Shown: in pieces, positions 17,931 to 39,150 of the stretch
Position numbering within the stretch: position 1 is the stretch's first letter
How the letters are laid out: the number at the start of each line of letters is the position of its first letter
DNA from: Sulfurovum sp. NBC37-1
GTDB taxonomy: Bacteria > Campylobacterota > Campylobacteria > Campylobacterales > Sulfurovaceae
DNA length: 64,000 nt
NCBI RefSeq assembly: GCF_000010345.1
Contig: NC_009663.1
Location: 310,001-374,000 of the forward strand
Direction of reading: 5' to 3'
Position numbers and translations under genes: made by a program
Notes under the pieces: model-generated
Databases searched by the model: none
The model's input: the letters and a program-made list of their open reading frames with translations, nothing else
What the model was told of the DNA's origin: nothing

Positions 17931-18725
17931 ATGAAACAGATGTTTCTTGCCGTTTGGGCATACCGATTCTTTATTGTCTCTTCCATACAGACTGAGTTTC
18001 GATCCCGATTTGCCCGTAGTAAATTCGGCGGCTTCTGGATGGTTCTGCATCCTTTGGCACAAGTCCTGATATATGCACTCATACTTTCACAAATTATGAA
18101 AGCAAAATTTCCAGGAGTAGAAACACAATACGCATATCCCATTTACATACTTTCAGGAATGCTTGCATGGACACTCTTTTCAGAGATCCTGAATCGCTCA
18201 TTAAATGTTTTTATCAGTAATGGAAATCTTCTCAAAAAAATGTCTTTTCCTAAGCTGGCACTACCTCTTATTACCTTAGGTATCTCTCTTATAAACTTTT
18301 TTATTTTTACAGTCATGATGTTTATTGTTTTTGGCTTTTTGGGACACCTTCCCTATCATGCCTTGTATTGGCTTCCACTCTTGACACTTATCACTCTTGC
18401 ATTGGCAACAGGTATAGGGCTGTTTCTGGGAACCCTCAATGTTTTCATAAGGGACATAGCCCAAATGATGGAGATCATCATGCAATTCTGGTTTTGGCTG
18501 ACGCCCGTCGTCTACATGATCTCCATTGTGCCCGAAAAATATCATGTACTTTTTCTTATTAATCCCATGACAGGCATTGTTACTGGATTTCAAAGTATCC
18601 TGCTTTACGATAAAGCACCTGACCTCTCACTATTGGTTTATCCTACCCTTTTTGCGCTTATCAGTATGCTGCTTGCGATGGTGGTATTCTATAAGGCACG
18701 AGAAGAAATGACGGACGTGCTATGA
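17931..18725 (+). CDS. wzm: Polysaccharide ABC exporter, permease (Wzm-like)
   Basis: A 264-residue ABC-2 permease with six membrane spans. FRSRFARSKFGGFWMVLHPL near the N terminus and the later NVFIRDIAQM and QFWFWLTPVVY are the usual Wzm/TagG/KpsM landmarks. It would move a lipid-linked polysaccharide across the inner membrane with the next gene product. It overlaps wzt by four bases. Confidence 0.92.
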   Translation: MKQMFLAVWAYRFFIVSSIQTEFRSRFARSKFGGFWMVLHPLAQVLIYALILSQIMKAKFPGVETQYAYPIYILSGMLAWTLFSEILNRSLNVFISNGNLLKKMSFPKLALPLITLGISLINFFIFTVMMFIVFGFLGHLPYHALYWLPLLTLITLALATGIGLFLGTLNVFIRDIAQMMEIIMQFWFWLTPVVYMISIVPEKYHVLFLINPMTGIVTGFQSILLYDKAPDLSLLVYPTLFALISMLLAMVVFYKAREEMTDVL

Positions 18726-19948
18726 AACTAGTATTAAAAGTAAGCAATATCAGTAAATTTTTTAAAGAATATAAAAGTGAATGGTATCGTATAGCCTCAT
18801 GGTTTGGATTTAATTTTAAACCAATCGAAGTGCATCACATTCTCAAGAAAATAGATTTCACAATTGCACCGGGTGAATCTGTCGGAATAGTAGGACAAAA
18901 CGGTGCCGGGAAAAGTACACTTCTTAAGATCATTACAGGCACACTCAAACCCTCCGGAGGAACTGTTGAGGTCAATGGCAGGATTTCCGCCATTCTTGAA
19001 TTGGGTATGGGGTTTAATTCCGACCTGACAGGGCGGCAAAATGTCTACCATTCAGCCGGCCTCATGGGATACAGTGTAGAACAAATAGATAAAGTAATCG
19101 CAGATATTGAAAGTTTTACTGAGATCGGTGAATATTTTGATCAACCGGTTAGAACATACTCCAGCGGCATGCAGATGCGTGTTGCTTTCGGGGTAGCAAC
19201 CATGTACAGACCGGAAATCCTCATAGTAGACGAAGCACTATCGGTAGGTGATACCTATTTCCAGCATAAAAGTTTTGAGCGTATCCGTGAATTTCAAAAA
19301 CAGGGTACAACATTGCTGATAGTCTCTCATGACAAAGGAGCGATTCAGGCCATTTGTAACAGGGCTATCTTGCTTGAAAAAGGTGTAGTCATCAAAGATG
19401 GAGACCCTGAAGCAATTATGGATTTCTACAATGCGCTTATTGCGCAAAAAGAAAACAGCACGATCAAACAAGTGGTTAGAGAGGATGGAAAGACGGAAAC
19501 AATATCGGGAACAGGTGAAGTCAGTATTGAAAATGCACAACTCTGCAATGCACACAACGAACCCGTTGAGTATATCAACGTAGGCGAGGATGTGACACTT
19601 AAAGTGGATATATCTGTACATAAAGATATCCCGCAGCTTGTCCTGGGCTATTTGATTAAGGATAGGTTAGGCCAAGAAGTATTTGGGATAAATACCCATC
19701 ATCTTGAGCATACTCTAAACAATGTCCCTCAAGGGGAAAAGATAGAATTCAATTTTGCATTTCCAATGAATGTAGGTGTGGGATCATATGCAATTTCACT
19801 TGCCGCACATGCACAAGACACACATCTTGAAACAAATTACGAATGGAAAGATCAGGCATTACTCTTCAATGTGATCAATATCGACAAAAAAGAATTTGTC
19901 GGTCTCTCGTGGATTGAACCAAAAATAGAGGTACATTATGTTAACTGA
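18722..19948 (+). CDS. wzt: Polysaccharide ABC exporter, ATPase with glycan-binding C-terminal domain (Wzt-like)
   Basis: A 408-residue ATPase. Walker A is GQNGAGKST, the signature YSSGMQMRV, Walker B ILIVDEALSVGD, with IVSHD. Residues of about 260-408 form a separate beta-rich domain, as in the Wzt proteins that recognise a capped O-chain end. That matches the methyltransferase gene that overlaps its stop by 11 bases, since a methyl cap is what such domains bind in E. coli O8/O9a. Confidence 0.92.
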   Translation: MKLVLKVSNISKFFKEYKSEWYRIASWFGFNFKPIEVHHILKKIDFTIAPGESVGIVGQNGAGKSTLLKIITGTLKPSGGTVEVNGRISAILELGMGFNSDLTGRQNVYHSAGLMGYSVEQIDKVIADIESFTEIGEYFDQPVRTYSSGMQMRVAFGVATMYRPEILIVDEALSVGDTYFQHKSFERIREFQKQGTTLLIVSHDKGAIQAICNRAILLEKGVVIKDGDPEAIMDFYNALIAQKENSTIKQVVREDGKTETISGTGEVSIENAQLCNAHNEPVEYINVGEDVTLKVDISVHKDIPQLVLGYLIKDRLGQEVFGINTHHLEHTLNNVPQGEKIEFNFAFPMNVGVGSYAISLAAHAQDTHLETNYEWKDQALLFNVINIDKKEFVGLSWIEPKIEVHYVN

Positions 19949-21140
19949 AAATTTTTACAGAGCATTTGAAGACAAATACAGAGGATCAAGAGGTATGATC
20001 AAAGAGCGTCTAAAAATATACCTTCCTTTTCTTTTTCCTTTAAAAGCACTATATCCCGATACCAGAGTACTTGATATTGGATGCGGTAGAGGAGAGTGGC
20101 TTGAGTTATTGAAAGAACATGCCATAGAGGCTGAAGGTATTGATTTTGATCAGGGAATGCTTAATGCCTGTCATGAGATAGGCCTTAAGGTTCGACAAGG
20201 TGATGGAATTGCCTATCTCAAAGAACAGGCTGATGAAAGCCTACTTGCAATCAATGCATTTCATGTGGTTGAGCATATTTCTTTCGACCAGCTTCATGAC
20301 CTTGTGAATGAAGCACACCGTGTCCTGAAACCAGGCGGTCTGTTAATCCTGGAAACACCTAATCCCGAAAACATTAGAGTAGCGACGGAAACCTTTTATC
20401 TAGATCCAACACATATAAAACCTATTCCTTCCCAACTCTTGTCATTTTTACCGGAGTTTTACGGTTATACGCGTACAAAAATAGTGAGGCTGCAGGAGTC
20501 CAGAGATCTTATAAACCAACAAAATATTAACTTATGGCAGGTTTTAGACGGGGCAAGCCCCGACTATGCAATTATTGCACAAAAAAATGCTGCGGTGGAG
20601 ACACTGAAACAATTCGATGAACTTTTTTCAAAAGATTTTGGAATTTCTTTAAATCTGCTGACGGAAAGATTTGAAAATCGTTTTCAATACATGGAGGCCA
20701 AAGCAACACAGGCAGAAGCCAAAGCAACACAGGCAGAAGCCAAAGCAACACAGGCAGAAGCCAATTTTCACATGCTTCTCAATAGTCGCTCCTGGAAGAT
20801 CACAAAGCCCTTACGTAGTACAGTAAAAATTGCGAGAGAGTTTAAAACAAGTGCAAAGCACTGGGTAACTTTTTCATCAGATAGCATACCCCAAAAAGCA
20901 CTTTTTTCATTACTTGAAACTATCAGATACCAAATTCAAAAACATCCCAGACTTGCGTTAAATATGAAAAATATTTTATTTAAAATACCAGGTCTCAGAA
21001 AGAAGATCAAACAACTTTTCCATAATCAGGCAAACCACAAGAAGATATGTATTGAATCTCCTAAATTGTTTATTCCCGATACTCAAACCATATCTTCAGA
21101 TCTTAAAAAATCAATAAAAAAGCATAAGGAAGAAAAATGA
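19938..21140 (+). CDS. SAM methyltransferase with heptad-repeat coiled coil (WbdD-like chain terminator candidate)
   Basis: A 400-residue protein. Residues 1-230 are a class I methyltransferase with motif I VLDIGCGRGEWLELL (44-58) and FHVVEHI. FYRAFEDKYRGSR at the start is typical of methyltransferases in Wzm/Wzt loci. Residues 254-274 are three exact copies of AKATQAE, one heptad each, coded by three exact 21-base repeats. Then comes LNSRSWKITKPLR and a basic tail that may contact membrane. Unlike E. coli WbdD there is no kinase domain. A cap-and-ruler role is inference from order and architecture. Confidence 0.82.
   Translation: MLTENFYRAFEDKYRGSRGMIKERLKIYLPFLFPLKALYPDTRVLDIGCGRGEWLELLKEHAIEAEGIDFDQGMLNACHEIGLKVRQGDGIAYLKEQADESLLAINAFHVVEHISFDQLHDLVNEAHRVLKPGGLLILETPNPENIRVATETFYLDPTHIKPIPSQLLSFLPEFYGYTRTKIVRLQESRDLINQQNINLWQVLDGASPDYAIIAQKNAAVETLKQFDELFSKDFGISLNLLTERFENRFQYMEAKATQAEAKATQAEAKATQAEANFHMLLNSRSWKITKPLRSTVKIAREFKTSAKHWVTFSSDSIPQKALFSLLETIRYQIQKHPRLALNMKNILFKIPGLRKKIKQLFHNQANHKKICIESPKLFIPDTQTISSDLKKSIKKHKEEK
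20697..20759 (+). repeat. Three exact 21-bp tandem repeats coding a coiled-coil heptad
   Basis: The unit GCCAAAGCAACACAGGCAGAA occurs at 20697-20717, 20718-20738 and 20739-20759, in frame, and is followed by a partial GCC. Each unit codes AKATQAE. Gain or loss of a unit keeps the reading frame and changes the helix by exactly one heptad. Confidence 0.95.
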
Positions 21141-24055
21141 AACGTCTCATACTTCATCTTACTGAAACTCTACTTATGTCATTTCAGGAAAATGAACAAA
21201 CAAAAAATCTTAATTCCTTTACTGCTTATATTGATAAACTTTATAGAAAATATGATTTATGGATTATCTGCAATGCCGCATTTCCGCAAAGCATTATTAC
21301 CATACGTCATAATCTAAGAGGTTTACTTCCACAAGATCGCATCCTTGTTTTTCATCTTCCTTTTCAAAACAGCATAAACCCCTTTGAAAAAGAAGTCAAT
21401 CATCTCATTGAAGAATATTTCCTTTCACAGCTACATCCTGAAATTATACTTCATATGGATCATTCCCATATAGGGGGTACATCCTCCGGCTGCCAAGTTT
21501 CCGTAAGCAGAGCAAAAATGAGAAAGGTGCCTTCAGACCATAAGGTTCAACCAAAACCGTCACTGGCCTATTTCTCTCCTATACCACCAGTAAAAAGTGG
21601 TATTGCACATTACAGCAAAGAACTTCTCCCGCATATCAGCAAATACTACGACATTACTCTGGTTATAGATCCAATAACAACACAACTTGCAAATAAAAAG
21701 GGACCCTATAAAATTCTATCTGTCGATGCTTTTAAGGAACAATACGAGAATTTTGACAGAATTCTCTATCATTTTGGAAACAGTTCTTATCATAGTTATA
21801 TGTGGCCACTTTTAAAAGACTATCCGGGTATAGTAGTTTTGCACGACTTCTTCCTTAGTGGATTACTCTCCTATGAAGAGTTTGCTAACGGTAAAACCGT
21901 CTGGACAGAACAACTCTTCAAATCTCATGGATATCACGCACTTCAGATGCGCTTTGACGATGACAAAATAGAAGAACTCAAATACCGATACCCCTGCAAC
22001 TATGAGATACTACAATATGCAACAGGTATTGTGGTTCATTCAGAATATGCAAAAAATCTTGCCAATGACTGGTATAATCCCCATCCGCTTAACAGGTGGA
22101 GTACTGTACCGCTTCTGCGAGAACCGGTAACAGAAAGAGACAAAAAAAATTCCCGAGCATTTCTTTCACTGCCTGAAGACGCACTTATCCTTTGCAGTTT
22201 TGGTATTCTCAATGCTACCAAACTCAATCACATGCTTATTCAAGCTTTTTTAAAGTCATACCTGTCTGGGATTCCAAACTGCTATCTTGTCTTTGTCGGA
22301 GAAAATAAAAGTGGTGAATATGCAATAAAACTTGAAGAAATTATCAAAGCATCAGGCCTCAAAAAACAGATTATAATTACTGGATGGGTCGATGATAATA
22401 CATTTCATCACTATCTCAGCGCTACAGATATAGGTATACAGTTGCGTACCGCATCACGAGGAGAATCCTCTGCATCTGTACTTGACTGTATGAATTACGG
22501 CCTGGCAACTATTATCAATGCCAATGGTTCCATGGCGGAACTTCCCAAAGATGCAGTACTCATGCTTAATGATAATTTAACTATTGATGACCTGGTGGAT
22601 GCATTGGAAAAGCTGCAAAAAGATAAAAACTTTCGTACAGGCCTGGGGCAAAAAGCCAAAAGATATATTCAAGAATATCATAATCCTTTTATATGTGCCG
22701 AAAAATATCAGAAAACTATTGAGAAAAACTATACTAAACATAAAACTTATAATGATCTTATCAGCAAGTTGGCTAAGATGGAGCAAACCTCCACTGCTGT
22801 ATCTCAAGAATTAAATAAAATATCTGACTCAATTTCCCATTCAACCCTTCAAAAAATTACACAAACACAGTTACTTGTCGATGTTTCAGCCATTGTCCAA
22901 AATGATTTACGAACCGGCATAGAGCGTGTAGTACGGGCCCAACTTCTTGAATTGATAGCTATTACGCCTGATACTGTCAGGGTTGAGCCGGTCTATCTTT
23001 CGGAAGAGAACGGTTTGCACTATCGTTATGCACCTGCTTTTACTGCAAATATATTAAATATTCCTGTTCACATCAGGGAAGAAGTAGTAGACGTCAAAAA
23101 CGGTGATATCTTTTATGGTCTAGATTTTTATAGAGATGGTGTCATAAAAGCAGCAGAAAGCGGTATTTTTACTCATTGGGCAGCAAAAGGTGTTACCATA
23201 AATTTTGCTGTCTACGACCTTTTACCTATACGCTATCCACATTTTTTTCCTGAGGGAACTTCGGACCTCCACAGCAAATGGCTCGAAGCGATTGTACCTG
23301 TTTCAGACACCCTCGTCTGCATTTCAAATACAGTTGCCAACGAACTAAAAACATGGATATCTTCTTATCTTCCTGAAACATTGGAGAAAAATATTCATAT
23401 CGAAACAGTACATCTTGGATCTGACATCACTGCATCAGCTCCTACAGAAGAATTGCCAGACAATGCTAAAGAGACCCTTGATCAAATTGGCACAAAGACA
23501 ACTTTTTTAATGGTTGGGACCATCGAGCCAAGAAAAGGACACCTCCAGGTTCTTGCTGCATTTGAATTGCTCTGGGAGAAGCAGGAGGATATCCATCTTG
23601 TCATTATCGGCTCAGAAGGATGGAAAAGCCTTCCCGATTCTGATCGCAGAACAATCCCTGAAACCATAAATAAAATCAAAAACCATCCCCAGTTAGGCAA
23701 AAAACTGTTTTGGTTTGAAAAAGCCAGTGATCTTTTCCTGGAAACACTTTATCGACAGTCCGATGCCCTCATTGCGGCCAGTGAGGATGAAGGTTTTGGG
23801 CTTCCCCTTATTGAAGCTGCACATTATACACTTCCAATTATTGCTAGAGACATCCCTGTATTCAAAGAAGTAGCTTCCCGGCATGCATTCTATTTCCCGA
23901 ACGATAATGAACCTTTAACGCTCTCAAATGCGATTATTGAATGGCTGAACAGCTATCGTAACGGTGGTCACATCCTTTCTGAAGAGATGAATTATATCAG
24001 CTGGGAAGAGAATGCCCAGAGAGTCATTGACCTTCTGCTCAGTAATGGCCGCTAA
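21137..24055 (+). CDS. Twin GT4 glycosyltransferase (972 aa)
   Basis: Two glycosyltransferase modules in one protein. The first (about residues 145-545) starts LAYFSPIPPVKSGIAHYS and has the donor-site pattern RGESSASVLDCMNYG. The second (about 575-970) starts LLVDVSAIVQNDLRTGIERVVR and has GTIEPRKGHLQVL and SEDEGFGLPLIEAA, the EX7E motif. The first 140 residues are less clear. Multi-module enzymes of this kind (WbdA, WbpX) polymerise mannose or rhamnose chains in ABC-dependent O-antigen loci. It overlaps its neighbours at both ends. Confidence 0.88.
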   Translation: MKRLILHLTETLLMSFQENEQTKNLNSFTAYIDKLYRKYDLWIICNAAFPQSIITIRHNLRGLLPQDRILVFHLPFQNSINPFEKEVNHLIEEYFLSQLHPEIILHMDHSHIGGTSSGCQVSVSRAKMRKVPSDHKVQPKPSLAYFSPIPPVKSGIAHYSKELLPHISKYYDITLVIDPITTQLANKKGPYKILSVDAFKEQYENFDRILYHFGNSSYHSYMWPLLKDYPGIVVLHDFFLSGLLSYEEFANGKTVWTEQLFKSHGYHALQMRFDDDKIEELKYRYPCNYEILQYATGIVVHSEYAKNLANDWYNPHPLNRWSTVPLLREPVTERDKKNSRAFLSLPEDALILCSFGILNATKLNHMLIQAFLKSYLSGIPNCYLVFVGENKSGEYAIKLEEIIKASGLKKQIIITGWVDDNTFHHYLSATDIGIQLRTASRGESSASVLDCMNYGLATIINANGSMAELPKDAVLMLNDNLTIDDLVDALEKLQKDKNFRTGLGQKAKRYIQEYHNPFICAEKYQKTIEKNYTKHKTYNDLISKLAKMEQTSTAVSQELNKISDSISHSTLQKITQTQLLVDVSAIVQNDLRTGIERVVRAQLLELIAITPDTVRVEPVYLSEENGLHYRYAPAFTANILNIPVHIREEVVDVKNGDIFYGLDFYRDGVIKAAESGIFTHWAAKGVTINFAVYDLLPIRYPHFFPEGTSDLHSKWLEAIVPVSDTLVCISNTVANELKTWISSYLPETLEKNIHIETVHLGSDITASAPTEELPDNAKETLDQIGTKTTFLMVGTIEPRKGHLQVLAAFELLWEKQEDIHLVIIGSEGWKSLPDSDRRTIPETINKIKNHPQLGKKLFWFEKASDLFLETLYRQSDALIAASEDEGFGLPLIEAAHYTLPIIARDIPVFKEVASRHAFYFPNDNEPLTLSNAIIEWLNSYRNGGHILSEEMNYISWEENAQRVIDLLLSNGR

Positions 24056-25023
24056 TGTTCGGATACCTCAGGTTTACACTGGCCTTTTTTGTTATGCTGT
24101 CTCATGTTGGGGTGAAAATATATGGAATGAATCCCGGAGTAACAGCTGTAGTTATCTTCTATATACTGGCAGGCTTTGTTGTCTCTCATCTTTACAGAGA
24201 TATCTTTTCAGACAAAAAGAAAGAACTTCTTTATTTTTATAAAGACAGAATACTGAGAATCTTTCCTCTCTATCTTTATGTTGTAGCCATTACACTTATT
24301 TTTCTTCTTGCTACCTCTTTTGGAAACCCTCTGTTTGAGCCTCTGCGTATGGTTGAGAATCTGCTAATCATACCGTTGAACTATTATATGTACATAGACA
24401 GCACAATCCTTCAGGATCCCAAATGGTGCCTTGTCCCTCCTGCATGGTCTTTGGGAACGGAACTTCAGGCCTATATACTTCTGCCGCTTGCGCTCGTATT
24501 CAGACAAGTAAAGTTTGCTTTGTTCATAATTACTTACAGCGTATATACTTTGGCCAATTTCTCTTTTCTTCAGCCCGATTATTTCGGCTACAGACTGATA
24601 GCAGGAGTCTTTTTTATCTTTTTACTTGGCGTTTCCATTCATAAAAATGAAAAAGAAGATCGCTATATTCTGATTTCTACAGTGATTGTAACGATTTTAT
24701 TTGTAATTATATCTATATGGGTAGGTTCATTTGGCCAGGCATTTAGCCGGGAAACCTTTATAGGCATAACCGTAGGGGTACCCCTTGTATTTGCCATTTC
24801 AAAGATAAAAAACAACTTCCCGCTGAATGCTCTTTTAGGCTCCTTATCCTACGCTTTGTTTCTTACACATTTTTTATCTATCTGGATACTGAAATATCTA
24901 AAAATAATGCCATCTCAGACCTTTGTGTATATACTTGAAGTACTAAGCATCTCTCTTTTTTTCTCATTCATTGGCGTCTTTTTCATAGAAGAGTATTTTA
25001 GAAAAAAAAGGATTAAAAAATGA
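24055..25023 (+). CDS. Acyltransferase 3 family membrane protein (OafA-like)
   Basis: A 322-residue protein with about ten membrane spans. YLRFTLAFFVMLSHVG with the catalytic-type histidine, the RILRIFPLY arginines and PPAWSLGTELQAY are the acyltransferase 3 pattern. Members acetylate sugars of O-antigen or capsule. Its start shares one base with the stop of the preceding gene (TAATG), so it belongs to the same operon and probably O-acylates the exported chain. Confidence 0.87.
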   Translation: MFGYLRFTLAFFVMLSHVGVKIYGMNPGVTAVVIFYILAGFVVSHLYRDIFSDKKKELLYFYKDRILRIFPLYLYVVAITLIFLLATSFGNPLFEPLRMVENLLIIPLNYYMYIDSTILQDPKWCLVPPAWSLGTELQAYILLPLALVFRQVKFALFIITYSVYTLANFSFLQPDYFGYRLIAGVFFIFLLGVSIHKNEKEDRYILISTVIVTILFVIISIWVGSFGQAFSRETFIGITVGVPLVFAISKIKNNFPLNALLGSLSYALFLTHFLSIWILKYLKIMPSQTFVYILEVLSISLFFSFIGVFFIEEYFRKKRIKK

Positions 25024-25177: not shown

Positions 25178-26047
25178 ATGGATATACTATCTGTTGTAAA
25201 GCTCATGCGTCCTCATCAATATATTAAAAATCTATTTATATTCCTTCCACTCTTCTTTGCCATGAAAATTACAGATATTACTCTCTTATCCAACGCTTTT
25301 TTCGCTTTTATTGCTTTTTCTTTCACTGCGAGTGCCGTTTATACACTTAATGATTATCACGATATCCAAGAAGACAAACAACATCCAAAAAAGAAAAACC
25401 GGCCATTGGCATCTGGAGCCATTACAAAACCACAGGCTATTGCAATCATGGGAATATTATCTACACTGGGATTTCTGTTGATGACTGCATTGTCATGGGA
25501 AGCGGCAGGCATACTCCTTGCCTACGTAGTCATGAATATTGCCTACAGTTTCTACTTTAAACATATTGCAATTTTGGATGTCACTATCATCGCCATCGGT
25601 TTTGTATTGCGTCTTTTTATCGGATCGGCTGTTACGGATGTTCCTCTTTCCATGTGGATCGTTGTCATGACATTTCTTCTGGCTCTTTTCATGGCGTTGG
25701 CAAAACGCAGAGACGATGTACTTATCTATCTCGATACAGGTAAAAAAATGCGTAGGGTTATCGATGGATACAATCTCCAGTTTCTTGATACCGCAATGGC
25801 GATTATGGCTTCCGTGGTTATTGTTGCCTATACTATATACACCACATCTCCTGAAGTGGTGTATAGAACACAAAGTTCCTATCTTTATATTACTGCCCTT
25901 TTTGTCATTTTGGGTGTTATGCGCTATCTTCAGATAGCCTTTATACACAAAAATAGCGGTTCTCCAACCAAAATCATGCTCAAAGACCATTTTATGCAGC
26001 TTGTATTATTTGGGTGGATTATTACTTTTGCCTGGATCCTTTACTAA
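25178..26047 (+). CDS. UbiA-family prenyltransferase, polyprenyl-phosphate phosphoribosyltransferase type
   Basis: A 289-residue protein with eight or nine membrane spans. The first Asp-rich motif is NDYHDIQED at residues 58-66, followed by KKKNRPLASG. KLMRPHQYIKNLFIFLPLFF is characteristic of the DPPR-synthase branch (mycobacterial Rv3806c), not of quinone or haem enzymes. That branch moves 5-phosphoribose from PRPP to polyprenyl phosphate. The next three genes are the rest of the same pathway, which supports this reading. The GtrA-like start shares one base with its stop. Confidence 0.85.
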   Translation: MDILSVVKLMRPHQYIKNLFIFLPLFFAMKITDITLLSNAFFAFIAFSFTASAVYTLNDYHDIQEDKQHPKKKNRPLASGAITKPQAIAIMGILSTLGFLLMTALSWEAAGILLAYVVMNIAYSFYFKHIAILDVTIIAIGFVLRLFIGSAVTDVPLSMWIVVMTFLLALFMALAKRRDDVLIYLDTGKKMRRVIDGYNLQFLDTAMAIMASVVIVAYTIYTTSPEVVYRTQSSYLYITALFVILGVMRYLQIAFIHKNSGSPTKIMLKDHFMQLVLFGWIITFAWILY

Positions 26048-26454
26048 TGTTGGTCGCAAAGTATGGCATCTTTGCTCTAATCTCCACATTGGTCAATCTC
26101 TTTTTTCAATGGATGAGTTTTAGTGTCTACGATAGTTTCGGCTCACTTTATGTAGCGATGTTCGCTGGAACACTTGCAGGCTTGTTTGCCAAATATATAT
26201 TGGACAAAAAATGGATATTTTATCATACTCCAAAGGACAAAAAAGATGATGCCAGGAAATTTTTGCTGTACTCATTCATGGGCATATTCACCACCATTAT
26301 CTTCTGGGGAACGGAAATGGCTTTTTATTATCTTATATCTAATCCTAACGCCAAATATGCCGGTGCCGTTATTGGCCTGACTCTTGGCTATATCATCAAG
26401 TACTTTCTTGACAAAAAATATGTTTTTATCCATAAAAAAGAGGCAACAACATGA
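26047..26454 (+). CDS. GtrA-family membrane protein
   Basis: A 135-residue protein with four membrane spans. KYGIFALISTLVNLFFQW and two copies of a Y-x-LDKKW/YxF pattern (YILDKKWIF, YFLDKKYVF) fit GtrA. GtrA proteins are thought to flip or gate lipid-linked sugars; Rv3789 in the mycobacterial arabinose locus is one. I chose ATG 26047 (MLVAKYG), which overlaps the ubiA-like stop as TAATG, over an in-frame ATG at 26014. Confidence 0.85.
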   Translation: MLVAKYGIFALISTLVNLFFQWMSFSVYDSFGSLYVAMFAGTLAGLFAKYILDKKWIFYHTPKDKKDDARKFLLYSFMGIFTTIIFWGTEMAFYYLISNPNAKYAGAVIGLTLGYIIKYFLDKKYVFIHKKEATT

Positions 26455-27752
26455 AAACCTGCAGTGCGTGGGGCATGTACCCTAAAATAAAATGTCAATA
26501 CTTCAAGTTCGATAAAAAAGAGACCCTTAAACGGATCATCAGTAACCATGGTGAACTGATCCCTTACGGAAACGGAAGAAGTTATGGTGACAGTGCATTA
26601 AGTACCAATATTATCACTTTAAACTCCCACGATTACTTTTTAGATTTTGATGAAGAGAAAGGTTTGCTCCATCTTGAAGCAGGCGTACTACTTTCGGATA
26701 TTCTCGAACACTTCGTTCCAAGAGGGTGGTTCCTTAAGGTTACACCAGGAACAAAGCTCATCACTGTTGGCGGTGCGATTGCCTCTGATGTTCATGGTAA
26801 AAACCACCATAGGGAAGGCTGTTTCTCTGAATGTATTGAAGATTTCAGCATAATGCTTGAACATGGAGAAGTTGTTAGCTGTTCCAGAGAAAAAACACCA
26901 GAACTTTTTAAAGCAACTTGCGGAGGTATGGGACTGACCGGTGTCATTCTCGATGCCAGAATCTACCTTAAAAAGATAAACTCGCAATACATTGAGCAGA
27001 CCACCATCAAAACCCAAAATCTCAAAGAGACTTTCGAAGCTTTTGAAGCTTACAGCCATATGCCGTATTCGGTTGCCTGGATTGACTGCCTTGCCAAAAA
27101 AGACAAGATAGGCAAATGCCTGCTGATGGTTGGAGATTTTAAGAATGACGGCAGACTGGATTACAAAATAAAAAAGCAAAAAGAAATTCCTTTCAATTTT
27201 CCAGGCTTTGCGCTTAATAAGTGGAGTGTTAGAGCTTTTAACTGGCTTTACTACGGTAAAGTCAAAGAACGGGTTTCAAAACAAAGTGTCGACATCGATA
27301 CCTTTTTCTATCCACTTGACGCAATCGGTCACTGGAACCGTATCTACAGTACAAATGGTTTCACACAGTACCAGTTCATTCTACCTAAAGATACAAGCTA
27401 TAAAGGCTTGGAAGAAATCCTGACCGTCATTGCCGACTCCGGCAAAGGCTCCTTCCTTGCCGTACTGAAACTCTACGGCAAGGCCAACAGGAATTGGCTC
27501 TCTTTCCCCATGGAAGGTTACAGCCTTGCTCTTGATTTCAAGATAGAAAAAGGCCTCTTTTCACTGCTGGATAGACTCGATGAGATAGTACTGAAACACA
27601 AGGGTAGAATTTACCTTACCAAAGATGTCAGAGTAAACAAAAAAACATTCGAGCAGGGATACCCGCATATAGAGAAATTCAGACAATACAGAGAAAAGAA
27701 TAAGATGACTGCCAGATTCCAGTCCCTGCAATCAAGAAGAGTGCAAATTTAA
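26451..27752 (+). CDS. dprE1: DprE1-like FAD oxidoreductase (polyprenylphospho-ribose 2'-oxidase)
   Basis: A 433-residue VAO-type flavoprotein. FAD-site motifs are YGNGRSYGDSAL (39-50), GGAIASDVHGKNHH (107-120) and GGMGLTG. The same stretches in mycobacterial DprE1 are nearly the same. Lys391 in IYLTKDVR would be the catalytic lysine (Lys418 in M. tuberculosis). The residue 31 positions before it, Ala360 in YSLALDF, stands where the benzothiazinone-reactive Cys387 is. It would oxidise the ribose C2 to a keto form for the next enzyme. ATGA overlap with the GtrA-like gene. Confidence 0.87.
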   Translation: MKTCSAWGMYPKIKCQYFKFDKKETLKRIISNHGELIPYGNGRSYGDSALSTNIITLNSHDYFLDFDEEKGLLHLEAGVLLSDILEHFVPRGWFLKVTPGTKLITVGGAIASDVHGKNHHREGCFSECIEDFSIMLEHGEVVSCSREKTPELFKATCGGMGLTGVILDARIYLKKINSQYIEQTTIKTQNLKETFEAFEAYSHMPYSVAWIDCLAKKDKIGKCLLMVGDFKNDGRLDYKIKKQKEIPFNFPGFALNKWSVRAFNWLYYGKVKERVSKQSVDIDTFFYPLDAIGHWNRIYSTNGFTQYQFILPKDTSYKGLEEILTVIADSGKGSFLAVLKLYGKANRNWLSFPMEGYSLALDFKIEKGLFSLLDRLDEIVLKHKGRIYLTKDVRVNKKTFEQGYPHIEKFRQYREKNKMTARFQSLQSRRVQI

Positions 27753-27780
27753 CATCATTATAAGTGAAAGGGTTTATAAA

Positions 27781-28512
27781 ATGAGTTATATATTAATTAT
27801 AGGCGCAAAAAGTGACATGGCCCGAGCAATTGCCAGAGAGTATGCCAAAAACGGGTACAATCTCTATCTTGCCGCCAGAAATGTGGATGAACTGACCGAG
27901 TTCGCAAAAGATATAATTACGAGAACGCAAAGAGAAGTGGATCTTGTAGAATTTGATGTACTGAATTACACCAGCCATCAGGCATTTTATGAAAATCTCC
28001 AGGAAAAACCACTCGGTATTATTTCTGCCGTTGGGTATCTCGGAGACCAGAAAAAAGCCCAGAATGATTTTAGTGAAACGCAGAGGATCATTGACACCAA
28101 CTATACGGGTATTGTCAGTCTGTTCAACATTGTTGCCACCGACTTCGAGAAACGACGTAGCGGTTTTATGGTCGGTATCTCTTCTGTTGCAGGCGACAGG
28201 GGTCGGAAAAGCAACTATATCTACGGTTCAGCCAAAGCGGCACTAACTGCTTATCTTTCCGGTCTGAGAAACAGACTTTATGATGCGCAGATACAAGTAC
28301 TGACGGTCAAACCTGGGTTTGTAGCGACCAAGATGACGGAAAACCTGGATCTTCCTGAAAAGCTGACTGCACAGCCCGAAGAAGTAGCAAAAGCTATTTT
28401 TAGTGCTCAACAGAGAGGGAAAAATGTGATTTATACAAAATGGGTCTGGAAGTATATCATGATGATCATCAGAGCTATCCCGGAATGGAAATTCAGGAGC
28501 ATGGATATATGA
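27781..28512 (+). CDS. dprE2: DprE2-like short-chain reductase (keto-ribose to arabinose)
   Basis: A 243-residue short-chain dehydrogenase. The nucleotide loop is IIGAKSDMARAIA (6-18). Catalytic residues are a serine in GISSVAG and Tyr148-x3-Lys152 (YIYGSAKAA). DprE2 reduces the keto intermediate of DprE1 with NADH to polyprenyl-phospho-arabinose, and gene order (DprE1 then DprE2) is as in mycobacteria. It overlaps the next gene by four bases. Confidence 0.87.
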   Translation: MSYILIIGAKSDMARAIAREYAKNGYNLYLAARNVDELTEFAKDIITRTQREVDLVEFDVLNYTSHQAFYENLQEKPLGIISAVGYLGDQKKAQNDFSETQRIIDTNYTGIVSLFNIVATDFEKRRSGFMVGISSVAGDRGRKSNYIYGSAKAALTAYLSGLRNRLYDAQIQVLTVKPGFVATKMTENLDLPEKLTAQPEEVAKAIFSAQQRGKNVIYTKWVWKYIMMIIRAIPEWKFRSMDI

Positions 28513-30188
28513 CAAGTACTTCAAGTACAAAATTTTTTTTAATTCTCACTTCACTGATTATCTTTCTGATAGTGGGATTGTCCAGAAATCATTCGGTAAA
28601 CAGTGATCCAAAAGGTACTCTGCTTACTGCGCAAAGTATCATCGAGAATCAAACCATTAAACTTGATAATTATGAAAATATACAAAAATACGGTTACCAA
28701 ATATACAAAAAAAACGATCATTACTATTATTATTTTCCTTTAGGTTCGTCGATCTCAAGCATACCGTTTGTCTGGGTAGCAAAATACATATTTTCTTTAG
28801 ACATGAATAAAACAGATGACGACACGCAGGTACAGAAAATAATTATTGCCGTTGTTGCGGTACTTATATTTTTGTTTCTTTTTAAGATTTCCACTTTTTA
28901 CTTCAATGATAAAATCAGCATCATAATAGCCGCTTCTTTCTGGTCTGCAACATCCCTGTCCAGTACACTGGGGCAGGGCCTGTGGTCTCAGGACTTTGCT
29001 ACATTGTATGCAGCAATCTCGGTTTACTTGGGACTCTGCTTCATAAAAGACAGACACCGGAAGTGGTGGGCTTGGCTTGGCTTGGCATTATTTATGGCAT
29101 ATCTTACCAGGCCTACGATGTCTCTATTGACTATTTCCATCATACTGTTTTTATTTTTCAACCATCAAAAAGCTCTTGCAGTCAAAGTAGCATTGCTGGT
29201 CACCGCCTTATTGGTTTTGTTCGTTTTGTTTTCTCTTCATGAGTACAATCAGCTGTTGCCTGATTACTATTTGCCAAAACGACTGGAAAGCCAAACATTC
29301 TGGACTGCCCTCTATGGCAATCTTCTTAGTCCTTCAAGAGGCATTTTAATATTCTCTCCATTTTTATTCATATTTGTTCTCAATGCAAAAACATTATTTA
29401 CCGTACTGAAGAACGATAAAACGTTGATCATATTTGCATCCTGGATCATACTGCATCTCATTATTATTTCAAAATTTCCGCATTGGTGGGCAGGATGGAG
29501 TTATGGACCTCGATTCATGATCGATGTCTTGATTCCCATTTATCTGTTGTTTGTCATATTGCTTTACGAAATCTTCAAAAAGAGATCATCCGTATACAAC
29601 AAACTAAATTTGATTTTTCTGGCTGTTACGGTACCGCTGGCGATATATATCAACACGTATCAAGGTCTGTATAATCCTTATACAAAGAAATGGAATACCG
29701 AACCAAATATTGACCAAAATCCGTATTATCTGTTTGACTGGAAATATCCACAGTTTTTACACAGCAAACACAGACATGAAGCAAGACGGAAAGAATTTAA
29801 CGAATACATGAAACATATTATTTTGTTCGATTCTCCCAAAATAACTTACAGCTATGGCTGGTCATTTCCTGAAAAAAACCATATTTGGTCCCTGGGTGAC
29901 AAATCTGCCCTTTCCGTAAAACTGGAAAACAAAACCTACCATGGGACATTGTTGTTGAATGTAGGTGCATTCGGTAAACAGAAGGTAAAGATCTATCTGA
30001 ACAATACGCTTGTTTCTGAAAGTAGCATAGCAGGTTATTCAAACCATTTAAAAATTGACTTCGACCCTCATATATTAAAACCCGAAGATATCAATACCAT
30101 AAGGTTCGAATATTCCGATCCCCACAGGTCAGAGAATGGAGACAGGCGAATTTTGGCTATGGCATTGAAATCTCTGGACATAGAGTGA
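28509..30188 (+). CDS. GT-C type membrane glycosyltransferase, arabinosyltransferase candidate
   Basis: A 559-residue protein with about ten membrane spans and a soluble C-terminal part (about 440-559) that looks beta-rich. An early acidic stretch, NHSVNSDPKGT, sits in the first periplasmic loop where GT-C enzymes keep the catalytic Asp. HWWAGWSYGPRFMIDV is a motif I associate with lipid-sugar GT-C enzymes. It ends the operon that makes a lipid-linked pentose, so transfer of D-arabinose to a glycan or protein is a reasonable inference. I chose the start at 28509 (ATGA overlap) over 28440. Confidence 0.78.
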   Translation: MTSTSSTKFFLILTSLIIFLIVGLSRNHSVNSDPKGTLLTAQSIIENQTIKLDNYENIQKYGYQIYKKNDHYYYYFPLGSSISSIPFVWVAKYIFSLDMNKTDDDTQVQKIIIAVVAVLIFLFLFKISTFYFNDKISIIIAASFWSATSLSSTLGQGLWSQDFATLYAAISVYLGLCFIKDRHRKWWAWLGLALFMAYLTRPTMSLLTISIILFLFFNHQKALAVKVALLVTALLVLFVLFSLHEYNQLLPDYYLPKRLESQTFWTALYGNLLSPSRGILIFSPFLFIFVLNAKTLFTVLKNDKTLIIFASWIILHLIIISKFPHWWAGWSYGPRFMIDVLIPIYLLFVILLYEIFKKRSSVYNKLNLIFLAVTVPLAIYINTYQGLYNPYTKKWNTEPNIDQNPYYLFDWKYPQFLHSKHRHEARRKEFNEYMKHIILFDSPKITYSYGWSFPEKNHIWSLGDKSALSVKLENKTYHGTLLLNVGAFGKQKVKIYLNNTLVSESSIAGYSNHLKIDFDPHILKPEDINTIRFEYSDPHRSENGDRRILAMALKSLDIE

Positions 30189-30533: not shown

Positions 30534-33500
30534 ATGGCTTTAACTCAAACAGAAGTTTCAGAACTATACGTTACTATTTTCAATCGAGCAAGTGAGGGGG
30601 ACGGGAATATATATTGGCAGTCGTCTACAGACGCTGTAACAGCTGCTAACAATATGCTTGCCACAGATGCTGCAAAAGATTACTTTGGCGGTAGCATGGA
30701 TTCGGATGCAGCATTCGTTGCATGGATTTATCAGAACACGCTAAACAAAACAGTGGCAGACGATCCTGATGGTCAGCAGTACTGGGTAGACCAGCTTGCA
30801 TCTGGTGTCAGTAGAGGAGAAATGGTAGTTAACATGATAGACGCTATCAACACTTACTCCGGCTCGACAGATCCATTAACATTGGCTGCTTACAACCAGT
30901 TCCATAATAGAACAGTTGTTTCAGACTATACAGCCGATACACTGCATAATGCACCTGATGACTGGGCAACAGCTTTGTCATTCGGAGCTCCGACGGGTCT
31001 TTATGTAACAGATGATGCTGCAACAGTTACATCTGCAGAAGAGCAGATCAACGATATGAGTGCATTCCACCTGACAGTCAATCCTGACACTGCAACGGCA
31101 GGCACATTCATCGCAGACAGAGGATGGAACCCCGGTGGTACTGACCAAATGAATACACTGAACGACGATGACCATCTGACAGGTGTAGGTACTAACCCAA
31201 CGTTGGACTTTACATTTGTAACTGACAGTGAGACGGGTGATTACGATATCATGCCTACGATGAACAACATGGAAACAATCAACGTTGCATTTACCGCTGA
31301 TGCAGTTTCGGCTCCTCTGCAGACACTTGACCTGCAGGACACAACAGGTGTTGCACATCTGAACGCAACTAGAATTGATCAAGCGGTTACTGTAACATTT
31401 GACAATATTCAAGATAGATTACAGGATGCTTCCATATCTAGAACGAATGACGACGCTAATAGTAATGTAATTTTTGATCACAGAGCAGCAGCGCTTGCCG
31501 GTGCAACTGATCAAGTAGCACTGGAATTAAATGATGCTCAGGTAAACAATGTTAGATTTGATGGTGTGACTCAGGGTTATGAAACCATTAACCTCTCTTC
31601 ACATGGAGATGCCAACATGATGAATACCTTTACTGCCGAAGAGCTTGAGACACTGCTTATAGATGGTGACCAGAACTTGACACTTGGTGGTACCGTAACC
31701 ATTCAAAACGGGGTAAGCGGTCAGAGAGAAGGAGACTTCTTCACAGCAGGCTTGGCCAATGTTGCAGGTTCGCTGACAACAGTAAATGCTACAAACCTCT
31801 CAGGAGACTTAACATATAACATCGGTAATGAAATGGATGCAGGTGCAGATGGCACAAGCGGTCAATCTGTAGAATTACATGTTGTCGGTGGTAACGGAAA
31901 CGATTCATTTGTGATTACAAATGGTGTACAGATCGGATCAGCCGTAGGAAATACAGATACAATTGACGGTGGAGCAGGTCTAAACTCTTTAACATTGACA
32001 GGTGCGAATGGTCCAATAGGTCAAGTGCTTGCTGAAGCAGCAACAGGTCCTTCAATGACTCATATTCAGACTTTGGATATTAGAAGTGGTCATGACAACA
32101 ATGCAGTTGGAGATGTAGTTACTGTAGATGCCGATGCTTTTGATGAACTTGCTACAATCAGTGTAAGAAATGAAGGTATGAGAGTAGTTGGTGGTATTCC
32201 GGTAAACAGAGCTGAAGGTATGGTTGTAAATCTGAATGACTTGACTGTTGCGCAGGCTGATCATATTGAGGTACTTCATGGTACAACAGGTAACAGCCGT
32301 ATCGCAAACAATATCATTGTTGCTGATGTTAAAACAAACACAGCCGCAGACAGCCTGGGAGTTACAATTGCTGATGGTATCAATGTAGATCCTAGATTTA
32401 ACCTGCAGTTGAACGATACAGTAGGTACATCATTTGAAAATGTAACTATTACAGATATGGATACAGAAAGTAACACGATCGATCTTAACAGTAATGGTAA
32501 CCAGACAGGTACCATCACATTGATTGGCGGTGAAGCTGGTGACTTTATGAACCTCGATACAAATGGTTTGGTAAACAGATCAGGTTTATACCAATATGAC
32601 ACTTCAGGTAATGCAGTTGATACAGCTGGTATCCAAGATGTTGGTACTACCGCAGGAAATGTTAGACTGACTGCTTCAACCATTGATGCTTCACAGGCAG
32701 TGAGTGATGTAGTGGTAAGAGTTTCTGAAGGTGCAAACGGTGCTGTCGGTGCACAAAACATTACAATGGGTACAGGAAATGATACTGTTATTTTTGATGC
32801 TCTTGAAAATGGTACATCAGGACTTTCTGTTTCTGACACTGTAGCTGGTGCTGCAGGTAACGATACATTGGTAATCGATGGTGACATTTCTGCTGCCGGT
32901 GCTCCTACAGACATAAGCCTTGGTGCTTCAGAGTGGACAAATGTTTCCGGTTTTGAAACATTGCAACTGGTTGGAAATGGCGGAGTCGATAGTGTTGCCG
33001 TTGGTACAAAGAATGCTTACAACCTTATCTTGACAGATCAGTTGGTAGACGATAATGCTTCTGATGCCAATCAACTGGATATCGTCAATGACAACGGAAA
33101 TGTTCCTACAGCAAGCCGGAACAACGGTGTGACAATAGATGCAACAAAGCTTTCTGCAAGCAATTCATTTACCTATGATGGGCAGGAAAGAGATGCTACT
33201 GTTACAGTTGCAACATTTATGACACCTGATAAATTTATATTTGCAGATGCAAACATAAACGGTTCTTCAGTAATCGATGGTGGAGCAAACGTTACCAATA
33301 CGGCTGGTGGTACTAAAGCGGCTGGACACACAGCAAACGCAGATGTTCTTGAAATTCAAAATACTGCCATTGTAACAACGGGTGACCTTGCTGGCATAAC
33401 CAACGTTTCTAACTTGAGATTTACAAACGATCAGGCAACTGACCAGACAATTACTTTAAGTTTAAATGATGCAGTAGTTGACAGAATGGTAAACAACACA

Positions 33501-34127
33501 GCTGCAGCCGATGGCACAAATGCTGCTACAATTGGTCAAACAAATGAAACATTGACTATTAGAGCAATTGACAACGGTGCTATCTCGGATTCTATCTTGG
33601 ATATGAATACTGACGGCATGACAAATGCAGCATTGCAGCTTAATGTTAGAGGTGGTGGTGGTGCAGATACCATTAATGGTGGTACTGGTGCCGATGTTCT
33701 TAACGGACGTGGTGGTGCAGATACTATTGACGGTGGTACTGGCGTAGATACACTGACAGGTGGTGCTGGTGCAGATACATTTGTGTACACCAGCGGTTTG
33801 GATTCATGGGTAGGTGCAGTTGATACAATCACTGACTTTACTACCGGTACTGATTTTATTAATGTTCATGCAGCAGTAGCAGCTGCAGTTGTTGGTCCTG
33901 TTGCTACGACACTTACGGCTGCTCACTTTAGTTCAGCTGCCGCATCACTTGCGAATGGTGCTGCTATGGGTGGTGCTGCCGGTGCAGCGAACGTATATCT
34001 TGATACGACCAATAATGATATTTATGTTGACCTTAACGGTAACAACGTTTATGATGCTGGGTCTGATTTATATATTCACAATACTGGTGTAGCGGGTACG
34101 GCTACGACAGGTGATTTCATAGTATAA
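30534..34127 (+). CDS. RTX-type S-layer or surface protein with DUF4214 N terminus
   Basis: A 1197-residue protein with no signal peptide and, as far as I can read, no cysteine. The first 140 residues (ELYVTIFNRASEGDGNIYW) match DUF4214. The middle is long, Thr/Asn/Asp-rich and beta-like. Residues of about 1040-1085 hold RTX calcium repeats (GGGGADTINGGTGADVLNG). The hydrophobic end GTATTGDFIV fits a type I secretion signal. Size, composition and the nearby type I system with a SapC-family gene point to an S-layer protein like Caulobacter RsaA; an adhesin is the alternative. Confidence 0.85.
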   Translation: MALTQTEVSELYVTIFNRASEGDGNIYWQSSTDAVTAANNMLATDAAKDYFGGSMDSDAAFVAWIYQNTLNKTVADDPDGQQYWVDQLASGVSRGEMVVNMIDAINTYSGSTDPLTLAAYNQFHNRTVVSDYTADTLHNAPDDWATALSFGAPTGLYVTDDAATVTSAEEQINDMSAFHLTVNPDTATAGTFIADRGWNPGGTDQMNTLNDDDHLTGVGTNPTLDFTFVTDSETGDYDIMPTMNNMETINVAFTADAVSAPLQTLDLQDTTGVAHLNATRIDQAVTVTFDNIQDRLQDASISRTNDDANSNVIFDHRAAALAGATDQVALELNDAQVNNVRFDGVTQGYETINLSSHGDANMMNTFTAEELETLLIDGDQNLTLGGTVTIQNGVSGQREGDFFTAGLANVAGSLTTVNATNLSGDLTYNIGNEMDAGADGTSGQSVELHVVGGNGNDSFVITNGVQIGSAVGNTDTIDGGAGLNSLTLTGANGPIGQVLAEAATGPSMTHIQTLDIRSGHDNNAVGDVVTVDADAFDELATISVRNEGMRVVGGIPVNRAEGMVVNLNDLTVAQADHIEVLHGTTGNSRIANNIIVADVKTNTAADSLGVTIADGINVDPRFNLQLNDTVGTSFENVTITDMDTESNTIDLNSNGNQTGTITLIGGEAGDFMNLDTNGLVNRSGLYQYDTSGNAVDTAGIQDVGTTAGNVRLTASTIDASQAVSDVVVRVSEGANGAVGAQNITMGTGNDTVIFDALENGTSGLSVSDTVAGAAGNDTLVIDGDISAAGAPTDISLGASEWTNVSGFETLQLVGNGGVDSVAVGTKNAYNLILTDQLVDDNASDANQLDIVNDNGNVPTASRNNGVTIDATKLSASNSFTYDGQERDATVTVATFMTPDKFIFADANINGSSVIDGGANVTNTAGGTKAAGHTANADVLEIQNTAIVTTGDLAGITNVSNLRFTNDQATDQTITLSLNDAVVDRMVNNTAAADGTNAATIGQTNETLTIRAIDNGAISDSILDMNTDGMTNAALQLNVRGGGGADTINGGTGADVLNGRGGADTIDGGTGVDTLTGGAGADTFVYTSGLDSWVGAVDTITDFTTGTDFINVHAAVAAAVVGPVATTLTAAHFSSAAASLANGAAMGGAAGAANVYLDTTNNDIYVDLNGNNVYDAGSDLYIHNTGVAGTATTGDFIV

Positions 34128-34352: not shown

Positions 34353-36275
34353 TCAATCTTTCAGTTCATTTTCATACGCTTTTACAAGATCACCTATTTC
34401 GTCAAGAAGAGGTTTGAGGTATGGCTCATACTTACGCCATCGGTTCATAGAACTTTGGTAGAGAGGCTGACGTACCTGTGAAAGGCTTGCAGTTCGTACA
34501 GCCTTTTTGCTTTTGTGGAAATCCAGGCATTCTTTGCGCCACTCCACCCCGATATGCCCGGCTATCTTCTTCGATTCGCCTTCCAGGTCCCCTACCATGT
34601 CTTCATAGCGTACATCCAGTATCGTACCTTGGGGAAGTACACTTTTCCAGTATGCCATCAGCTCGGTATAGAGCCGGTAGTAGCGCCCCATCGTACGAAG
34701 GTCATCTGCCCAGTAGTGCCCTTCGGCAAAATGGATGCGATAGGCAGAGAGACAGGTCTCCACAGGATGTCTGCGTGCATGGACAATGGACGCATTGGGC
34801 AGCATCAGATGGATGAATCCTGTATGCATAAAATTGTGCGGCATTTTGTCTACGATCCGCCTGCTTTCTTTTGGTGCAAGGGCCTCTATCTTGTCAAGAT
34901 AGCGTTCCCCCATCTCTTTATAGCTTGGTCCCTCTTTTCCCTGTGCATTCTTTCCAGGGAAGAAAGATTCTCCATCTATCTTCACCCCCTCCAGCACTTC
35001 GCTTATATGGCTTAGTTCGCCCGCACCATATACATTGCCCAGACCTGAGAGTACCTGTTCCATCAGTGTTGTACCCGAACGCGGCATACCGAGTATAAAT
35101 ACCGGTTTACTGCTTGTGCATCCTGTGGGGTGTGAAGGTTTGAAGTAGTTTTTCGGCAGCGCTCTCAGCTTGTCATGCACATAGGATCTTGTTACTGCCA
35201 GTTCTTTAAAATGTCTCTCTTGCGAACGAAGCATTCCCCCGACTTTATAATGCTCAAAAGCTGTAGCAAGTTCACCTACATCATCATAAACCTTCCCCAG
35301 TGCATAATGCATCAATACTCTTTTTTCTGCTGCCATATCAGCCATATTCGCCTGTGCAAAACATATCTTTTTAAAAAACGCATCTCCGTATCTATAGGTA
35401 TGCATTGAACTTAAGCTTTGAAGAATTTCCATATTTAGAGGATCTTTCTCTAAAACTTTTGTAAAACAAAAAGAAGCTTTGTCAAATTCTCCCAAAATCT
35501 TGTAAGCCATACCAAGAGAACGATTAAAAGCGATATTTTCCGGTTCACTTTTCTGTACTGCCTCAAAGTGCTCAAGTGCTTCGTCAAAATTATTTGCCTC
35601 AAAGCAGCTTCTTCCGTAAGTCCATCGCAGCGCATTGTTTTTAGGATAGAGCAGAAGTGATTCGTATAGCCACTGATGTTCTTTCCTGGCGTCTCCATAT
35701 TTTTTCTTTAGCAAAAACCATGTATTCCACTGTTTTTCGGAAATATTGGGAGTATCCCCTTTGACCAGAACATCGTACTTTTCCCATGCTTCTGCTTTAT
35801 TGCCGAACTTGCTCAGTAGATCTGCTTCCCGCCATAGAAGTATGCTGTTGCCGGGGTCAAGCTTTAACTGCTTTAAAAGTATTTCTTTTGACGATCGCAT
35901 ATCACCGAGCCTGTGATGCAAATGATATAATTCTTCGAGCAGCCTGCTCTGATTGGGATCTATCTCTATGGATCTGGAAAATGCCTCCACAGCTGCCATC
36001 CACTCCTCTTTGAGCTTATGGTAGTGTCCCAACAGTTTCCATACCTCGGCATCCGAAGAGGTCACTTCAAGTGCTTTTTCAAGAAGAGGTAACGCAAAAT
36101 CCGGTGTGACTGTCTTCATCCAGATCGATGCCAGCAGTTTGTGGGCAGGTAAATATTTTGGATGAGCGGCTGTCAATTCCTGCAGTAGCAGTACGGCACT
36201 GTCATAGTCTCGTTTTTGAAGTGCCTGGTTTGTCTGATGCATTTTTTTATTTATAGTTTCTTGTTCTTTTGTCAT
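34353..36275 (-). CDS. TPR-repeat sulfotransferase (copy 1)
   Basis: A 640-residue protein. Residues 1 to about 350 are tetratricopeptide-like helices. Residues of about 385-640 are a sulfotransferase domain with the PAPS 5'-phosphosulfate loop FILGMPRSGTTLMEQVL near residue 390 and RRIVDKMPHNFMHTG after it. It would transfer sulfate from PAPS to a protein or glycan. Its start overlaps the stop of copy 2 by four bases. The catalytic half is almost the same as in copy 2, with a 138-base identical DNA run, while the TPR halves differ. Confidence 0.87.
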   Translation of the reverse strand: MTKEQETINKKMHQTNQALQKRDYDSAVLLLQELTAAHPKYLPAHKLLASIWMKTVTPDFALPLLEKALEVTSSDAEVWKLLGHYHKLKEEWMAAVEAFSRSIEIDPNQSRLLEELYHLHHRLGDMRSSKEILLKQLKLDPGNSILLWREADLLSKFGNKAEAWEKYDVLVKGDTPNISEKQWNTWFLLKKKYGDARKEHQWLYESLLLYPKNNALRWTYGRSCFEANNFDEALEHFEAVQKSEPENIAFNRSLGMAYKILGEFDKASFCFTKVLEKDPLNMEILQSLSSMHTYRYGDAFFKKICFAQANMADMAAEKRVLMHYALGKVYDDVGELATAFEHYKVGGMLRSQERHFKELAVTRSYVHDKLRALPKNYFKPSHPTGCTSSKPVFILGMPRSGTTLMEQVLSGLGNVYGAGELSHISEVLEGVKIDGESFFPGKNAQGKEGPSYKEMGERYLDKIEALAPKESRRIVDKMPHNFMHTGFIHLMLPNASIVHARRHPVETCLSAYRIHFAEGHYWADDLRTMGRYYRLYTELMAYWKSVLPQGTILDVRYEDMVGDLEGESKKIAGHIGVEWRKECLDFHKSKKAVRTASLSQVRQPLYQSSMNRWRKYEPYLKPLLDEIGDLVKAYENELKD

Positions 36276-38457: not shown

Positions 38458-39138
38458 CTATTTAGATAGTTTTCCTATATTTTCAAGCGAAAGAGTATGC
38501 AGCTCTATTATTTCCATCCATCCATTTTTGACAGCCTCAAGCAAAAACGCATCTTCTTGTTTGAAAAACTTCTGTTTGTTAATAATAAAAAAACCATCTA
38601 CTTTCTGCTTTTCTTCATTCTCTCTCTTGATAGTGAATTCGGCTGCATCCACCAAACCTTTTTCTTTTAAATGTTTCAAGATATTTTCAGTTATCTGATT
38701 TTCTTCATGATATGCTGCTAAAAAGTTTTTCATATTTTCTAAAATATCTGTGGGGGCACCTTCACTGTCAAATAAAGCATTTCCTTCGTCTGAGTTAAAT
38801 AAACCACTTTCAGAATCGAAACCTATATGAAGTGTTTCATTCGCTTCATCCTGAATCAATGTAAACGGATATCTTCTTAAAAACGAAGGAATGTATTTTC
38901 CTTTCCATTTGCCATTTTCATTTATCGCTCCATTGCTCTCTACCCCTGTTAAAATCATAAGTTGTGGTGTATTACCCTGCATTATAATTACAATTGGAAA
39001 TTCACAGCAAAGTGATTTGACCTCACTAAATGTAATAGGAATCAGGTTGAGATCTTTTGCATAAATAAGATCCGTTGCGGGTGTATATGAGAAAGATTTG
39101 TGCTCTTTCTTGTTGAGTATTTCTATATTTTTGTACAT
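38458..39138 (-). CDS. sapC: SapC-family protein
   Basis: A 226-residue soluble protein without signal peptide. IPITFSEVKSLCCEFPIVI, the later KWKGKYIPSFLRRYPFTLI and the FDSEG stretch are the SapC (PF07277) pattern. In Campylobacter fetus SapC is encoded with the type I exporter SapDEF of the S-layer protein; its exact work is not established. Here it follows the TolC-like gene by 12 bases, the same grouping. Confidence 0.85.
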   Translation of the reverse strand: MYKNIEILNKKEHKSFSYTPATDLIYAKDLNLIPITFSEVKSLCCEFPIVIIMQGNTPQLMILTGVESNGAINENGKWKGKYIPSFLRRYPFTLIQDEANETLHIGFDSESGLFNSDEGNALFDSEGAPTDILENMKNFLAAYHEENQITENILKHLKEKGLVDAAEFTIKRENEEKQKVDGFFIINKQKFFKQEDAFLLEAVKNGWMEIIELHTLSLENIGKLSK

Positions 39139-39150
39139 ATGTATGTTCCT

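Follow-up and report, generated by a model that had tools for sequence, protein, structure and literature searches.

A five-gene operon of Sulfurovum sp. NBC37-1 very probably makes a lipid-carried arabinose donor and uses it on a surface polysaccharide

The window analysed here is a stretch of 64,000 bases (C1:310001-374000, where C1 is the single contig of the 2,562,277-base genome of Sulfurovum sp. NBC37-1); positions without the C1 prefix are counted from its first base. Five forward-strand genes that overlap or nearly touch, and are translationally coupled, lie at 25178-30188, where the original prediction had placed them. They encode a UbiA-type polyprenyl-phosphate phosphoribosyltransferase (DPPRS/PPPRS; 25178-26047), a small membrane protein of the GtrA family, the proposed flippase of a lipid-linked pentose (26047-26454), a DprE1-type flavin oxidase of polyprenyl-P-ribose (26451-27752), a DprE2-type short-chain reductase (27781-28512) and a GT-C glycosyltransferase with a C-terminal beta-rich domain, the proposed arabinofuranosyltransferase (28509-30188). 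The stop and start codons at the UbiA/GtrA junction overlap in TAATG, which sets the GtrA start at the ATG at 26047 instead of the mechanically called GTG at 26014. GtrA and DprE1 are joined by an ATGA overlap at 26451, DprE1 and DprE2 are separated by 28 bp, and a further ATGA overlap links DprE2 to the GT-C gene, which starts at the ATG at 28509 and not at 28440. All five reading frames are intact. A promoter scan gave a signal no better than chance.

Family profile scores bear out the four protein types predicted for the first four genes. UbiA scored 233 bits against the decaprenyl-phosphate phosphoribosyltransferase family NF008977 (cut-off 234), while the best family of another kind reached 54 bits once the HAD-UbiA fusion family NF006088 (186 bits) was set aside. 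It matched the M. tuberculosis decaprenyl-phosphate phosphoribosyltransferase (PDB 8j8j) over its whole length (residues 4-284; 29% identity, E 1.5e-38), with the NDxxDxxxDxxHP motif kept and the aspartate-rich NDYHDIQEDKQHP aligned with NDVRDVEADREHP of 8j8j. GtrA scored 164 bits against NF037976 (cut-off 50). For DprE1, the score against NF053785 was 368 bits, below the NCBIfam equivalog threshold of 500 and far above the next family at 63 bits; the M. smegmatis DprE1 structure (PDB 4aut) was matched at 37% identity (E 6e-67). The protein keeps GRSYGD, HGKNHH, the Gln pair of QYQF, K340 (the Lys in KLYG) and Y388/K391 (YLTKDVR). DprE2 scored 181 bits against NF053786, again below the NCBIfam equivalog threshold (250), and the general SDR model PRK07102 scored higher (371); with its catalytic Ser-Tyr-Lys residues present, it is by sequence an SDR of the DprE2/PRK07102 group. 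The motifs named beforehand were all found, namely NDYHDIQED at residue 58 of UbiA, GGAIASDVHGKNHH at residue 107 of DprE1 and Tyr-x3-Lys at residue 148 of DprE2. Benzothiazinones bind covalently to a cysteine of DprE1 (C394 in M. smegmatis, C387 in M. tuberculosis). The equivalent of Cys387 in the window protein is Ala360, and alanine occupies this position in 10/10 aligned Campylobacterota sequences (the window protein and nine relatives), so the Campylobacterota enzymes should escape covalent benzothiazinone attack there.

The fifth protein has hardly any relatives in the 397 Campylobacterota genomes. The GT-C enzyme scored 39.6 bits against PF13231 (cut-off 26.1) and carries an Asp after its first transmembrane segment as well as a GPRF motif, which it shares with a 34% identical homologue in a Syntrophobacterales locus (L104); a DprE1 cassette lies in that same locus, approximately 7 kb away. 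Among the other 396 Campylobacterota genomes, one weak match was found, limited to the C-terminal 120 residues. Sequence comparison with the PDB returned a chance match only and no solved relative, and comparison with plasmids returned no match. An AlphaFold model built from a two-sequence alignment was too poor for a fold search (pLDDT 39). The beta-rich C-terminal stretch may represent a carbohydrate-binding domain similar to that of Citrobacter ORF12.

The operon is set among surface-glycan genes. Upstream, on the forward strand, lie a ManC/GMP-PMI gene for GDP-mannose supply (16560-17930; TIGR01479, 564 bits), genes for a Wzm/Wzt O-polysaccharide ABC exporter whose Wzt carries a C-terminal carbohydrate-binding domain (17931-19948; PF01061; PF14524 Wzt_C, 133 bits) and genes assigned by Pfam to a methyltransferase protein, a double GT4 glycosyltransferase and an acyltransferase_3 protein (19938-25023). 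The double glycosyltransferase of this O-polysaccharide locus (21137-24055) is 972 residues long and has two GT4 domains. Directly downstream, 345 bp from the operon, is a gene for an RTX/DUF4214 S-layer-like protein (30534-34127), and SapC and type I secretion genes follow at 38458-43541. Between these, two TPR-sulfotransferases, which may sulfate a surface glycan or a surface protein, are encoded on the reverse strand (34353-38206). Gmd (TIGR01472, 491 bits), a second SDR, likened to Rmd solely by its position, and a pair of GT4 enzymes (Pfam) lie 13 kb downstream of the operon (43734-47932, forward strand); they presumably belong to the same polysaccharide island as the upstream glycan genes. 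GC content falls to 0.34-0.44 across 16-48 kb compared to 0.43-0.48 in the flanks, suggesting that this stretch (16000-48000), which holds the O-polysaccharide, arabinose and S-layer genes, is one acquired surface-glycan island.

The operon contains neither a HAD nor a PAP2 phosphatase gene, as had been anticipated. The pathway had been called complete-looking; this holds for the donor-making genes and needs amending for the 5'-phosphatase, which is missing locally. A second UbiA-GtrA-DprE1-DprE2 cassette is present in the same genome (C1:1577024-1580408), 76-83% identical to the window cassette protein by protein. Its surroundings (L036, C1:1568000-1587999) form another glycan locus with EpsG, a formyltransferase, NTP_transf_5 and GT4 enzymes, and with no obvious GT-C gene adjoining the cassette. 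Behind the second cassette, 1.24 Mb from the window operon, lies a gene for a HAD-IB phosphatase (C1:1576360-1576977; TIGR01490, 136 bits against a cut-off of 98), the sole protein of its kind in the genome at E 1e-3. A HAD-IB homologue was found near 15/19 further cassette loci, the second cassette included, most commonly in the order UbiA-GtrA-DprE1-DprE2-GT-C-HAD. Across Campylobacterota, HAD-IB occurred in 17/19 genomes with a full-length DprE1 compared to 33/378 genomes without (Fisher p 5e-15, with genomes counted as independent despite their relatedness); as these 33 genomes indicate, the link is not exclusive. Because of this proximity and co-occurrence, the HAD-IB protein is the best candidate, and a likely one, for the missing dephosphorylation step. 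In the mycobacterial pathway, Rv3807c is the proposed dephosphorylating enzyme. A search of the genome for a PAP2 protein of this kind linked to the cassettes found none; a linked PAP2 was rejected as the phosphatase, as both PAP2 genes of the genome lie away from either cassette.

The four-gene core is distributed patchily, with a full-length DprE1 in 19/397 sampled Campylobacterota genomes (approximately 5%). Most of 19 further loci (18 other Campylobacterota genomes and the second copy of NBC37-1) keep these four genes and their order. DprE1 was also found in at least Thermodesulfobacteriota, Bacteroidota, Gammaproteobacteria, Chlorobiota and further groups. In 54 loci drawn from many phyla and having sufficient flanking sequence, UbiA accompanied DprE1 in 49 and DprE2 did so in 52. 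Named cassette relatives of highest identity, among the matches listed, include Sulfurovum and Sulfurovaceae MAGs. In a quick maximum-likelihood tree, the window DprE1 paired with a DprE1 from a Thermodesulfobacteriota MAG (SH-aLRT 98; binning errors are possible in a MAG) and not with its own paralogue, suggesting that the cassette has been exchanged horizontally. A recent duplication of the two cassettes within the genome is unsupported, since the window DprE1 groups apart from its paralogue. In the locus of that nearest DprE1 (L058, 8678-12029), the four-gene core stands alone between housekeeping genes, without glycan genes. Plasmids gave short, distant matches only to the cassette DNA. 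The donor module is widespread and probably mobile. Many Campylobacterota cassettes are accompanied by a GT-C of approximately 490 residues with a PMT_2 domain, to which the window GT-C was unrelated by BLAST. Most simply read, the cassettes share one constant donor module, with a transferase suited to each local acceptor; there is evidence for GT-C genes being swapped between loci, as exchangeable transferases beside a mobile donor module.

We consider it likely that the five genes form a three-component pentofuranose-addition system of the Araf type that places D-Araf onto an ABC-exported O-polysaccharide. Such systems are marked by a UbiA protein with the NDxxDxxxD motif and by DprE1/E2 homologues, and the operon has both, the homologues scoring below the equivalog cut-offs. 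The assignment of donor synthesis is strong and that of the acceptor moderate. We infer the reactions, the identity of the sugar, its flipping and its acceptor as follows. Undecaprenyl-P-D-Araf would be made in the cytoplasm, with the UbiA-type enzyme acting as polyprenyl-phosphate phosphoribosyltransferase. A phosphatase, for which the HAD-IB protein of the second cassette acting in trans is the best candidate, would take off the 5'-phosphate, after which DprE1 would oxidise and DprE2 reduce C2 to give undecaprenyl-P-D-Araf. GtrA would flip this donor, and on the outer side of the inner membrane the GT-C enzyme would transfer D-Araf to a glycan. Most probably D-Araf would form side chains of the mannose/6-deoxyhexose-based O-polysaccharide that the surrounding genes encode and an ABC transporter exports. 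The predicted lipid-linked D-Araf pathway stands for its donor-making steps, on homology and conserved motifs, and falls short at the local phosphatase.

The original prediction of a D-Araf-decorated surface glycan agrees with the gene context, which makes the O-polysaccharide the likelier target. An alternative explanation is that the same donor serves to modify a protein with D-Araf, in the manner of TfpW and pilin; the target could be the neighbouring RTX/DUF4214 S-layer-like protein or some other exported protein. In favour are the position of the S-layer-like gene immediately behind the operon, the nearby genes for SapC and type I secretion, and the precedent of the P. paraeruginosa pilin (PMC12369383); however, the 345-bp gap places that gene beyond the coupled genes, secretion by the type I route would skip the periplasmic action of a GT-C, and the genes upstream of the operon are O-polysaccharide genes. 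A protein acceptor is unlikely, if still the foremost competitor. It is also conceivable, because DprE1 and DprE2 score below the NCBIfam equivalog cut-offs, that DprE1/E2-like proteins with a different stereochemical outcome yield a lipid-linked pentofuranose other than Araf, such as Ribf, Xylf or an unknown epimer, the more so as the sugar is set by the identity of the epimerase (Kelly et al. 2024, PMC11127046). We regard this as improbable: the operon has an oxidase-reductase pair with the DprE1 active-site residues kept, while Xylf systems rely on one SDR epimerase and it is the Araf systems that have DprE1/E2 homologues (PMC11127046). It seems very improbable that the lack of a phosphatase makes this operon a relic or leaves it without function. 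Its relatives usually have the HAD gene nearby and it has neither HAD nor PAP2, but its five frames are intact and coupled, the HAD-IB gene is present at the second cassette and two PAP2 proteins are encoded elsewhere, and deletion of noeN in a Rhizobium lowered arabinosylation without abolishing it (PMC5080398).

With D-Araf on the O-polysaccharide as the preferred reading, the Sulfurovum operon is a new example of a pathway type described in 2024 and not a new kind of system. The earlier statement that D-Araf outside Actinobacteria is known on some pilins and rhizobial signals is outdated, given the O-polysaccharide systems (PMC11127046) and a cassette found in many phyla. Among the openly available papers searched, none was found to report D-Araf in Campylobacterota. 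What is new here is a second cassette in the genome, the HAD-IB protein as a candidate for the phosphatase, and evidence that a mobile donor module is combined with exchangeable transferases. The findings extend lipid-linked D-Araf chemistry, known best as the target of tuberculosis drugs, to vent-type Campylobacterota, give its phosphatase step a concrete candidate and show a donor module that is widespread and probably mobile. More tentatively, and with somewhat less than an even chance of being right, this may be a Gram-negative variant in which a stand-alone HAD-IB protein is the dedicated polyprenyl-phosphoryl-5-phosphoribose phosphatase, the UbiA-GtrA-DprE1-DprE2 module is mobile with interchangeable GT-Cs, and the window GT-C founds a new arabinofuranosyltransferase family.

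The mycobacterial decaprenylphosphoryl-arabinose pathway comprises Rv3806c, Rv3807c, Rv3790, Rv3791 and Rv3789. The UbiA, DprE1, DprE2 and GtrA types are all present in the window, and the operon very probably makes the lipid-carried arabinose donor of this tuberculosis cell-wall pathway and uses it on a surface polysaccharide. The window differs in that no Rv3807c-type PAP2 is in the operon (the HAD-IB protein being the candidate instead), Cys387 of DprE1 is replaced by Ala, the proposed acceptor is not arabinogalactan and the carrier is presumably undecaprenyl phosphate. The pathway type is that of the three-component pentofuranose addition systems found in O-polysaccharides generally, with Citrobacter youngae O1/O2 as the prototype (Kelly et al. 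2024, PMC11127046). That prototype has a MATE flippase, a GT-C of family GT136 and side-chain pentofuranose on an exported glycan; its locus contains ManC, Gmd, Rmd, Wzm and Wzt-CBM with the pentofuranose genes downstream, and dephosphorylation is by a HAD domain fused to UbiA (PMC11127046). Similar to it, the window has a UbiA-family PPPRS, a separate putative flippase, a GT-C and putative epimerising enzymes, and the likeness is close in the ABC-transporter O-polysaccharide locus with ManC, Gmd, Wzm and Wzt-CBM. In contrast, the window has GtrA in place of the MATE flippase, a UbiA without a fused phosphatase domain, and DprE1 plus DprE2 where the prototype has one SDR epimerase. D-Araf for the P. 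paraeruginosa pilin depends on PSPA7_6245-6251 with the transferase TfpW (PMC12369383), and noeC/H/O/P provide D-Araf on rhizobial Nod factors, with noeN as the proposed phosphatase (PMC5080398). As proposed for the window operon, the pilin and noeC(N)HOP systems rely on a lipid-linked D-Araf donor from related enzymes and a dedicated transferase; their acceptors and transferases are different, and it is the window GT-C, compared to theirs, that shares an operon with the donor genes.
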